In this document: piece after piece, positions 4,544-51,936 of the stretch
Layout of the letters: each line of letters begins with the position of its first letter
Position numbering within the stretch: the stretch's first letter is position 1
From: Pseudotabrizicola formosa
GTDB taxonomy: Bacteria; Pseudomonadota; Alphaproteobacteria; Rhodobacterales; Rhodobacteraceae
DNA length: 64,000 bases
Direction of reading: 5' to 3'
Assembly (NCBI RefSeq): GCF_002900965.1
Contig: NZ_PJOM01000002.1
Span: 682,001 to 746,000, forward strand
Translations under genes and position numbers: made by a program
Notes under the pieces: generated by a model
What the model was told of the DNA's origin: nothing
Database searches by the model: none
The model's input: only the letters and a program-made list of their open reading frames with translations

Positions 4544-5251
4544 ATGCGAATTTTACTCGTCGAGGATGATCCCACAACCTCGCGCAGCATCGAATTGATG
4601 CTAAGCCATGCCAATCTGAATGTTTATTGCACAGATTTGGGCGAAGATGGCATCGATCTGGCAAAGCTCTATGATTACGACCTTATTTTGCTTGACCTGA
4701 ACCTTCCGGATATGTCCGGCCATGAGGTGTTAAGGCAATTGCGATTGGCGCGAATCGAAACGCCTATTCTGATTCTCTCTGGCACGGATGACACGGATTC
4801 AAAGCTCAAAGGCTTTGGTTTTGGCGCAGATGATTACCTGACAAAGCCCTTTCACCGCGAAGAACTGGTGGCGCGCATTCATGCGATCATCCGCCGGTCG
4901 AAAGGGCATAGCCAATCGGTAATCGTGACCGGCAAGGTGAATGTGAACCTGGATGCCAAGACGGTTGAGGTGGACAACAAGACGGTGCATCTGACCGGCA
5001 AGGAATATCAGATGCTGGAACTGCTCTCGTTGCGCAAGGGCACCACGCTGACCAAGGAAATGTTCCTGAACCACCTCTACGGCGGCATGGATGAGCCGGA
5101 ATTGAAGATCATTGATGTCTTCATCTGCAAGCTGCGCAAAAAGCTGGCAGAGGCGACAGGTGGCCACAATTACATCGAAACCGTCTGGGGGCGTGGTTAT
5201 GTGCTGCGTGACCCGGTGGGCGAACCGCGCAAGATGGCGGCCAACGCCTGA
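4544..5251 (+). CDS. ctrA: Cell cycle response regulator CtrA
   Basis: An OmpR/PhoB-type response regulator of 235 residues. Receiver domain at residues 1-115 with acidic pocket Glu7-Asp8-Asp9 and phosphoacceptor Asp51 (the same number as in Caulobacter CtrA); the switch lysine is in [14 protein letters not shown] winged-helix DNA-binding domain follows (residues 125-225, ending GRGYVLRDP). The ATG at 4544 (MRILLVEDD) is chosen over an upstream in-frame start at 4496 because it fits the family N-terminus exactly. The C-terminus ends Asn-Ala rather than the Ala-Ala degradation signal of Caulobacter CtrA. In Rhodobacterales CtrA controls flagella and gene transfer agent genes rather than being essential. 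Confidence 0.95.
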
Positions 5252-9513
<4,262 letters not shown>

Positions 9514-9528
9514 AGCGAAACGCGGTTT

Positions 9529-9580
9529 GTTCTCGAATGTTCTTAAAAAGTTCTTTACAGGGTGGCGTTCCTATGAGAAC
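9529..9580 (+). promoter_or_regulatory. SOS (LexA) box cluster upstream of a small membrane protein
   Basis: GTTC at 9539-9542 and GTTC at 9550-9553 are separated by exactly seven bases (TTAAAAA), a perfect match to the GTTC-N7-GTTC LexA box defined for Rhodobacter and other Alphaproteobacteria. A further GTTC lies at 9529-9532, and GTTC 9567-9570 with GAAC 9577-9580 forms an inverted pair. The cluster lies between the recG stop and the ATG at 9611. Confidence 0.7.
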
Positions 9581-9610
9581 AATATGGCAACACGCAAACA
9601 GGAGGATGCC

Positions 9611-9727
9611 ATGGTTGCCCAAGTCAAGGAAATCGTCACCCGGTCTCGCGCCACGTTGATTGAGGATCTGTTGGGCGTGGTTGCCCTGTTTGCCTCGCTT
9701 TACGTCTGCCTGTCGTTCTCGTTCTGA
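9611..9727 (+). CDS. Small single-span membrane protein, probably SOS-regulated
   Basis: A 38-residue peptide beginning MVAQVKEIVTRSRATL with a short charged amphipathic head and one hydrophobic helix (LLGVVALFASLYVCLSF) reaching the C-terminus. ATG 9611 has GGAGG at 9601-9605, five bases upstream; the frame continues up to 9500 but without a comparable ribosome site. A strong hairpin terminator follows at 9813-9847. Function unknown. Its size, single membrane helix and upstream GTTC-N7-GTTC box resemble the plan of SOS-induced division inhibitors such as Caulobacter SidA (29 residues), but no sequence relation is claimed. It could also be a constitutive small membrane protein. Confidence 0.6.
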   Translation: MVAQVKEIVTRSRATLIEDLLGVVALFASLYVCLSFSF

Positions 9728-9812
9728 CACTGCCTGCGGTCTGACACGCGCGCGCGCGCCCCGCATCTGTCCCCAAGGGATGCCTATCAGCGCGCAACAG
9801 ACACGCCACTTG

Positions 9813-9847
9813 CCGCCGCCGTCGATCTGACGTGCGGCGGTTTTTTT
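9813..9847 (+). terminator. Strong intrinsic terminator after the small membrane protein
   Basis: Stem CCGCCGC (9813-9819) with GCGGCGG (9834-9840), continued by an inner CGTC/GACG stem, then seven T (9841-9847). It closes the recG / small protein unit and separates it from the converging NifU-like gene. Confidence 0.85.
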
Positions 9848-9866
9848 ATGCCGGGGGGTGCAGCTG

Positions 9867-10319
9867 TCAGCCTTGGGGCAGGGCCGCCTCTGCCATCACA
9901 GCCGCCTCTGCCGCCGCTTCGATCGCGAGCAGGATAGAGGCGTGGCGGTTCTTGTAATCCCGTGCCGGGGTCAGCACGACAAAGCCGTCAAACGGGGCGG
10001 CGGGCACCGGGCCTTCCTCCCGCAGCATCGCGCGCAGGGCATCACGGCCCTCTGCGAGTTCGGCCGCGCTGCGCCCGATCACCACCTCGCCCAGCAGGCT
10101 GGCGGCGGCTTGCCCCAACGCGCAGGCTTTGACGTCCTGACCAAAGGCACTGACCCGGCCATCCTGCATCACCACATCCACCGTTACGGTAGACCCGCAC
10201 AGGGGGGACCGTTTGCGCAGGGTGGCTTGCGGCGCGGGCAGGCGCCCATGGTGGGGAATGTCGGCTGCCAGTTCCAGAATCCGACCGGAATAGAGTTTGA
10301 TCAGGTCACTGTCGCTCAT
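9867..10319 (-). CDS. NifU/IscU-like iron-sulfur cluster assembly scaffold protein
   Basis: A 150-residue protein of the NifU N-terminal (SufU/IscU-like) fold: start MSDSDLIKLYSGRIL, the SPLCGSTV segment with the first cysteine ligand, and the KACALGQAAASLL segment with the second. Such proteins act as scaffolds or accessory proteins in Fe-S cluster building; the third canonical cysteine of IscU is not obvious, as in other short alphaproteobacterial members. The frame runs up to 10439 but ATG 10319 fits the family. It diverges from hisI across 64 bases. Confidence 0.8.
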   Translation of the reverse strand: MSDSDLIKLYSGRILELAADIPHHGRLPAPQATLRKRSPLCGSTVTVDVVMQDGRVSAFGQDVKACALGQAAASLLGEVVIGRSAAELAEGRDALRAMLREEGPVPAAPFDGFVVLTPARDYKNRHASILLAIEAAAEAAVMAEAALPQG

Positions 10320-10383
10320 CGCGCTTTTCCTTTTGTCGAACCTTAGATAGACCGATCCTCCGCAGCCGCCAAGGAGAACGCGC

Positions 10384-51593: not shown

Positions 51594-51936
51594 ACCACTC
51601 TAGTAGATCATCCCGAGTGACCGCTCAGGGGCTCAAAACGGACTTCTGCGCTTGTCGCGAAAGTCCGGTTCAAGTTGAGGGTGGGGAGTGCACCATAATT
51701 CATGCGCAGGTGTCGTACCAGTTATTGGATCCTGTCAAGAAAGATCGAGACGATTAAGGCTAACCACACATGTGAACGATCGCAGAACTGCTTCGGGACT
51801 TTCTTCGGGACTCGATGGGATGAATCGTCCCGAACTGGCCGGAGTTGTCCCAATGTTCAGGTTTGGCCGTCGCCTGTTGCCAACTTCAAAACCTGAACAA
51901 ACTGGCTTAAAATCAATGACTTGTACGGATTTTGGG
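51594..51936. other. Non-coding segment with two palindromes next to the tRNA
   Basis: No convincing gene in 340 bases. Two inverted repeats: TTCGGGA (51804-51810) with TCCCGAA (51828-51834), inner CGAT/ATCG arms; and TGTTCAGGTTT (51854-51864) with AAACCTGAACA (51889-51899), 24-base loop. A short frame (51702-51896) ends with a GTFFGTRWDES stretch that looks like integrase tails, but no catalytic domain is present. Possibly the relic of a mobile element at the tRNA. Confidence 0.4.

Follow-up and report, generated by a model that had tools for sequence, protein, structure and literature searches.

What is encoded in the gap behind recG in Pseudotabrizicola formosa, and could it delay division in cells with damaged DNA? 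The window analyzed here is a stretch of 64,000 nucleotides of contig NZ_PJOM01000002.1 (positions 682,001 to 746,000). In this window recG ends at position 9513, and the gap behind it is filled by a LexA-type promoter, a peptide ORF and a 3′UTR. An earlier note on this DNA had proposed that LexA controls a 38-residue membrane peptide at this locus. After comparison with relatives in the Rhodobacteraceae, the locus is read here as giving rise to an SOS-induced mRNA of this family with two division-delaying outputs, a membrane peptide directed at the divisome and an RNA that would repress ftsZ. This reading is held tentatively, its probability being judged not far short of even.

Distribution of the recG-side unit

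A tblastn search with the 38 residues identified relatives in 46 of 198 family genomes (E ≤ 0.01). Thirty of the loci were fetched; recG is present in 28, and the other two (L015 and L020) have a SufU-like neighbor. In the window a SufU-like (NifU_N) gene at 9867-10322 on the minus strand converges on the peptide unit, and such a gene was found in 24 of the 30 fetched loci of relatives. When a DNA pattern of the promoter only was used (TTCNNAAAAAGTTCTT N16-24 GAGAACAA), matches were obtained in 165 of 292 family genomes and none for the reversed control. There was one match per genome among the matches listed, and all 30 that were fetched are located downstream of recG and ahead of a short ORF of the peptide family.

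To avoid selection by peptide or promoter, loci were also taken by RecG alone, using the best 80 of 587 candidates, which are the nearest relatives. The peptide was found in 79 of these 80 loci. GTTC-N7-GTTC is present in 78 of the 79, GAAC-N7-(C/G)AAC likewise in 78, and both in 77, while CTGCCTG or CTGTCCC occurs in 75, no more than 260 nt past the stop. The joint conservation of box and peptide behind recG, to which the earlier note had looked for support, is borne out by these counts. The unit is missing from L108 (Gemmobacter nectariphilus), where the sequence behind recG, after position 4588, contains no boxes and no 3′UTR motifs.

With a profile of the peptide, strong matches among 385 genomes of the class were confined to five genomes, all of them from the Rhodobacteraceae (E ≤ 2.7e-12). 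Matches in 19 other genomes of the 385 had E values of at least 0.003 and were mostly partial or inside long frames; none outside the family was convincing. Applied to another 30 family genomes, the profile detected the peptide in 23 (E ≤ 0.01). As seven gave no match, losses or divergent copies exist, and these seven genomes may hold divergent copies.

The gene adjoins recG, a recombination helicase. This is compatible with another role in the SOS response, in which the peptide would bind a different inner-membrane protein (a protease, a transporter or an envelope sensor) or modulate recombination, and division would not be stopped. This explanation is regarded as improbable, since the complementarity to ftsZ described below points to division. 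The adjacency itself may be mere inherited order, because a separate promoter serves the gene and its distance from recG varies (∼550 nt in L113, a Roseovarius locus). An mRNA that delays division through a peptide and an RNA is preferred.

A conserved SOS-type promoter

On the plus strand, GTTC half-sites are arranged in tandem between 9529 and 9553 as GTTC-N6-GTTC-N7-GTTC (at 9529, 9539 and 9550), the second and third forming the box GTTCTTAAAAAGTTC (9539-9553). According to PMC12700426, GTTCN7GTTC is the LexA consensus of Caulobacter. The box is followed by a −35-like element, TTTACA (9554-9559, plus strand), the position of which is kept among relatives, mostly as TTTAC. A second LexA-like box, GAAC-N7-CAAC (9577-9591, plus strand), overlaps the −10-like AACAAT (9578-9583). 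The further GTTC and GAAC elements mentioned in the earlier note could be located as the half-site at 9529, with its spacer of six bases, and this second box. TTTACA-18-AACAAT (9/12 matches) is the sole sigma-70-like site in 9480-9900, and the mean number in shuffles was 0.0.

The box pattern is short. GTTC-N7-GTTC has 2 matches in the window compared with 1.4 expected, and 83 in the genome compared with 116 for the reversed control pattern. A single match is therefore unremarkable on its own, and the case rests on conservation. The further match in the window (51774-51788, minus strand) has no clear gene directly behind it and is at chance level.

Conservation was determined for 138 distinct loci; among the loci from which this set was drawn, 30 had been picked by the promoter pattern and 30 by the peptide. 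Within 200 nt before the ATG, GTTC-N7-GTTC occurs in 137 of them (shuffled expectation 0.3). GAAC-N7-(C/G)AAC precedes the ATG in 131 (expectation 0.65), 11 of which have GAAC-N7-GAAC, and the triple GTTC arrangement is found in 111. Both promoter anchors are present in 132 loci, and in 128 of these they span 35 nt. Among the six loci missing an anchor, L086, L145 and L152 are one base off, L125 and L126 are more divergent and the start of L064 was misread. That the box arose by chance was considered as well and ruled out, as conservation and spacing far exceed those of shuffles.

Boxes of the same kind precede SOS genes in the genome of the window. For lexA and recA, identified by family models, GTTC-N7-GTTC is found on the other strand, 32 and 49 nt before the predicted starts, respectively. 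Other boxes are followed directly by uvrA, an MmcB-like DNA-repair gene, an SRAP gene and, judged from its position, a gene for an ImuB-like polymerase. The remaining matches lie within genes or before genes without a known SOS role, as such a short pattern predicts. In the same genome, two GTTC-N7-GTTC boxes that overlap each other lie across the start of a photolyase/cryptochrome-like gene (L191, around position 1501). LexA sites have been searched for in Dinoroseobacter shibae, and recG is absent from the main text of that study (PMC6473078). Taken together, the promoter appears to be a conserved one of the SOS type, and SOS control of the gene is well supported by the sequence comparisons.

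Translation and predicted membrane helix of the peptide

The 38-codon membrane-peptide gene extends from 9611 to 9727 on the plus strand, stop included, and its translation is MVAQVKEIVTRSRATLIEDLLGVVALFASLYVCLSFSF. It is preceded by the Shine-Dalgarno sequence AGGAGG (9600-9605, plus strand), which agrees with the strong ribosome site described earlier. A loosely defined motif of this kind is present in 112 of 114 forty-residue relatives. Pairwise comparison of relatives that share 72-97% DNA identity (63 pairs) gave a pN/pS of 0.31 in frame vs 0.98 and 2.5 in the two alternative frames. Purely non-coding conservation was ruled out by this ratio and its off-frame controls. An ATG is found at the expected place in all 138 distinct loci, as read by a script that favored ATG. 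The peptide has 40 residues in 118 of 144 loci and 36-42 in 143; the other one, L064, was misread by the script. Translation is thus well supported across the relatives.

In all 114 peptides, positions 20-37 are devoid of charged residues. The periodicity of conservation across residues 16-38 has its maximum at 100 degrees per residue (permutation p 0.003), and the conserved face of the helix comprises D19, G22, L26, L30, G33/L34 and P37. This pattern resembles that of a membrane helix in contact with another protein and looks less like a pore-forming amphipathic helix. The peptide combines a very short length with one predicted membrane helix, as expected for the SidA type, and division inhibition like that by SidA is plausible. 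The proposed 38-residue membrane peptide agrees with the purifying selection on its frame and the uncharged span, and its control by LexA is strongly supported by conservation, by the boxes before SOS genes and by pN/pS. Searches in Pfam and NCBIfam gave no match for the window peptide. In PHROG the sole match, a marginal one, was obtained with one of 30 relatives (E 0.042), and solved structures gave no convincing match to the peptide (best E 0.47).

The TisB/IstR-1 system of Escherichia coli includes an SOS-induced short hydrophobic peptide, and the membrane helix of TisB has charged residues. A type I toxin of this kind, which would depolarize the membrane and be held down by an antisense RNA, resembles the recG-side gene in its short hydrophobic peptide, its structured mRNA and, as predicted here, its SOS induction. 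It is nevertheless a very unlikely explanation for this gene, given the span free of charged residues, the conservation on one face and a leader between promoter and ATG that varies from 22 to 71 nt among relatives. In addition, no minus-strand promoter-like site was found in 9480-9900 of the window, and there was no sign of an antisense partner. A peptide that acts on the divisome is preferred to a toxin.

A predicted structured RNA in the 3′UTR

Behind the peptide the earlier note had placed a strong terminator. The fold contains an intrinsic-terminator-like element (9812-9847, plus strand), consisting of a hairpin of 12 pairs (9812-9841) and a T-run to 9847, but a simple terminator scanner reported none in 9480-9900. 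Concerning the extent of the unit, box and peptide had been read correctly, but the conserved unit continues past the peptide stop and through the 3′UTR to ∼9847.

Directly behind the stop, on the same strand, lies a CUGCCUG motif (9730-9736), of which all but the last base are unpaired in the fold and which is complementary to CAGGCGG at ftsZ, with one U-G pair. The outer stem P1 (9736-9806, plus strand; arms 9736-9743 and 9798-9806) encloses an inner hairpin. Hairpin H1 (9763-9783, plus strand) carries the C-rich loop region CUGUCCCC (9767-9774), the first bases of which are paired in the fold. In the relatives, the 3′UTR could be delimited by a GC-rich hairpin and a T-run in 127 of 138 loci. 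These 127 contain 124 copies of CTGTCCC, distributed over 97 of them, and 135 copies of CTGCCTG in 95, compared with shuffled means of 3.5 and 5.3, respectively. In minimum-energy folds the unpaired fraction is 72% for bases within CTGTCCC copies vs 42% for all bases. Folding gave z-scores of −2.4 with the window sequence and −4.3 with each of two relatives.

Consensus folding of a MAFFT alignment of 58 long 3′UTRs yielded only the terminator and a 4-bp stem. As the stems vary and the loops do not, alignment folding performs poorly, and therefore an alignment-free swap test was used, in which the pairing of each locus's own flanks is compared with that of flanks exchanged between loci, the relatedness of loci being left uncorrected. 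For P1, own arms gave −26.1 kcal/mol and swapped arms −21.0 kcal/mol, and own arms were in the best 5% for 44 of 114 loci. The corresponding values were −9.6 and −6.9 kcal/mol for H1 (21 of 100), −6.6 and −4.6 kcal/mol for H2 (8 of 34), and −9.6 and −6.0 kcal/mol for H3 (14 of 35). Windows shifted from H1 by 13 nt either way showed no difference, with 6 of 100 and 4 of 96 loci in the best 5%. In Rfam no match at the gathering score was obtained for the window region 9450-9900 or for the loci of nine relatives. From the conserved loops and stems, the 3′UTR is a predicted conserved multi-hairpin RNA that exposes CUGCCUG and CUGUCCC.

This strong conservation would also fit a locus that is mainly an RNA gene, the conserved function residing in an sRNA from the 3′UTR and the peptide being a minor product. 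Such a gene is extremely improbable here, as purifying selection acts on the reading frame, the peptide length remains close to 40 residues and five relatives retain the peptide without either 3′UTR motif. An mRNA with both a peptide and an RNA output accordingly stays the preferred reading.

The ribosome site of ftsZ and its complementarity to the 3′UTR

Among mRNAs, ftsZ was examined first because it is repressed by DinR, an SOS-controlled sRNA from the 3′ end of dinI in Klebsiella pneumoniae (PMC10907235). In the genome of the window the start region of ftsZ (L258) reads AAAAGACAGGCGGATAGGCAATGG. The 3′UTR sequence 5′-CUGCCUGUC-3′ is predicted to pair with 5′-GACAGGCGG-3′ of ftsZ over nine bases, one of the pairs being U-G. 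A second match of nine bases, GGGACAGGC, is located ∼95 nt before the ftsZ ATG and is complementary to GCCUGUCCC. GGGACAG was seen upstream of ftsZ in 5 of 29 family loci.

From 70 family ftsZ loci, 68 were read; L270 is truncated where its contig stops, and L283 failed the start filter yet has CAGGCGG. CAGGCGG is found within 22 nt of the ATG in 62 of the 68, and GGAGG or AGGAG in none. Outside the family, 29 ftsZ loci of the class were reduced to 27, as one lacks an ATG where it was expected and L388 is itself a family locus; CAGGCGG is present in 0 and GGAG in 24 of these 27. Before other genes CAGGCGG was seen once among 225 in recG loci, many of which are mutually orthologous. It occurs at 1 of 170 distinct predicted starts of the window's genome, a rough background because only 41 of the 170 show GGAG and many may thus be wrong. 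The ftsZ ribosome site of Rhodobacteraceae, ACAGGCGGA(CAG), is conserved and non-standard, unlike the GGAG of most of the other alphaproteobacteria compared.

Predicted binding to the 3′UTR was compared between ftsZ and 30 control starts in each of 35 genomes. In 21 genomes at most 3 of the 30 controls bind the 3′UTR as well as the own ftsZ, where ∼4.5 genomes would be expected, and mean binding was −10.9 kcal/mol for ftsZ vs −5.9 kcal/mol for controls. ftsZ ranks first of 31 starts in just 2 of 35 genomes, and for the genome of the window six of the 30 control starts equal or exceed ftsZ in predicted binding. The pattern CAGGCGGA-N1-10-ATG occurs at 44 places in this genome (reversed control 5). 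Since 7 of 30 fetched places pass a simple gene-start filter, ftsZ included, ftsZ is not unique. In a brief look, GGGACAGGCA had 11 matches there vs 9 for the reversed control. ftsZ is thus a candidate target with a strong family-wide signal, and others are possible.

CTGCCTG or CTGTCCC is found within 220 nt past the stop in 18 of 23 family genomes for which both the 3′UTR and the ftsZ site were read, and 17 of these 18 have CAGGC(A/G)G at ftsZ. In G018, CTGCCTG is combined with CAGGCAG at ftsZ, so that all pairs are Watson-Crick; in G077 the 3′UTR motif is kept and the ftsZ site is changed. Five of the 23 have neither motif (G060, G030, G048, G102 and G045), and four of them keep CAGGC(A/G)G at ftsZ; in G045, which lost the motifs, the site is CAGGTGG. 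Among the seven genomes without a peptide match, six keep the ftsZ site, including G015, and it is degenerate in G004. Motif and ftsZ site are not strictly coupled, and significant co-loss is absent. The CAGGCGG site could be retained at ftsZ for another reason or for another RNA.

These data bear on the possibility that only the peptide acts on division, as an SOS inhibitor of the SidA/DidA/YneA type on a late membrane protein of the divisome, while the 3′UTR stabilizes or terminates the mRNA and its match to ftsZ is coincidental. The LexA promoter, the single-helix peptide and its one-face conservation fit this explanation, small integral membrane division inhibitors are a widespread SOS theme (PMC4211646, PMC13396833), and the ftsZ site is mostly kept in genomes without the 3′UTR motifs. 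It is nevertheless judged rather unlikely, as loop motifs and paired stems of the 3′UTR are conserved beyond the needs of a terminator and CAGGCGG, present at ftsZ in the family, is absent from the 27 ftsZ genes outside. An additional, ftsZ-repressing output is preferred, with the caveat that the match to ftsZ comprises only 7-9 bp, one of which is U-G. The structured 3′UTR with its complementarity to the ftsZ ribosome site, which the earlier note had passed over, is the computational result that hints most directly at cell division.

Discussion

The proposed mechanism is as follows. In undamaged cells, as the positions of the boxes suggest, LexA dimers on the two boxes around −35 and −10 would keep the gene off. 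Upon damage, RecA-triggered cleavage of LexA would allow the synthesis of a short mRNA encoding a single-pass inner-membrane peptide of ∼40 residues. The conserved face of the peptide would serve to dock it on a membrane protein, most likely a divisome component, in the way that SidA docks on FtsW. In the multi-hairpin 3′UTR of the same mRNA, exposed CUGCCUG and CUGUCCC would pair with the ftsZ site and lower FtsZ synthesis, like DinR in Klebsiella. The SOS boxes, the promoter, translation, the structured RNA and the complementarity are supported at the level of sequence. The membrane partner, the repression of ftsZ and the arrest of division are predicted. It is a more tentative proposal, and rather doubtful, that the unit represents a family-wide SOS checkpoint with peptide and RNA outputs, for which the ftsZ site was reshaped from GGAG to ACAGGCGGA(CAG).

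SidA of Caulobacter crescentus is a 29-residue, SOS-induced inner-membrane division inhibitor (PMC4211646). The recG-side peptide is similar in being alphaproteobacterial, probably LexA-controlled and very short, with a single predicted membrane helix. In contrast to SidA, it has ∼40 residues, its gene adjoins recG and a structured 3′UTR follows, whereas none is mentioned for SidA in the accessible part of PMC4211646. With DinR the unit shares a LexA-controlled mRNA for a small protein, the 3′ end of which pairs with the translation start of ftsZ, as was shown for DinR and is predicted here. However, the pairing stretch of DinR is specific to Klebsiella, while motif and ftsZ site are family-wide in Rhodobacteraceae (PMC10907235).

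The host protein of DinR, DinI, is a modulator of the RecA filament, and both this protein and the DinR sequence are unrelated to the peptide unit. Because of this, and because its likeness to SidA is one of description, the unit is assigned to neither system; it is predicted, by analogy, to work like SidA and DinR at once. The sequences of DicF and DicB are presumably unrelated to the recG-side unit as well. From the Qin prophage of E. coli, this one locus yields an ftsZ-directed sRNA, DicF, and a small protein that affects division, DicB (PMC9438474, PMC10448788), but from a prophage operon, in contrast to the single gene with LexA boxes described here. In Rhodobacter sphaeroides, of the same family, the sRNAs UpsM and StsR likewise control division genes, but this control is exerted on the dcw cluster, in its 5′ leader, and StsR is made under RpoHI/HII; recG, SOS, LexA and ftsZ do not occur in the main text of that study (PMC8625941).

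Among the best results of an open-access literature search, no paper described the recG-side gene or an SOS division inhibitor from the Rhodobacter/Roseobacter family. New here are the conserved multi-hairpin RNA of the 3′UTR and its complementarity to the unusual ribosome site of ftsZ. The gene is a strong candidate for the SOS division inhibitor of the Rhodobacter/Roseobacter family and may be how these bacteria pause division during DNA repair. If the RNA half of the proposal is true, it would be a second, independent example of ftsZ being silenced by the 3′ end of an SOS mRNA, here family-wide, and the non-standard ftsZ ribosome site of Rhodobacteraceae would be explained.
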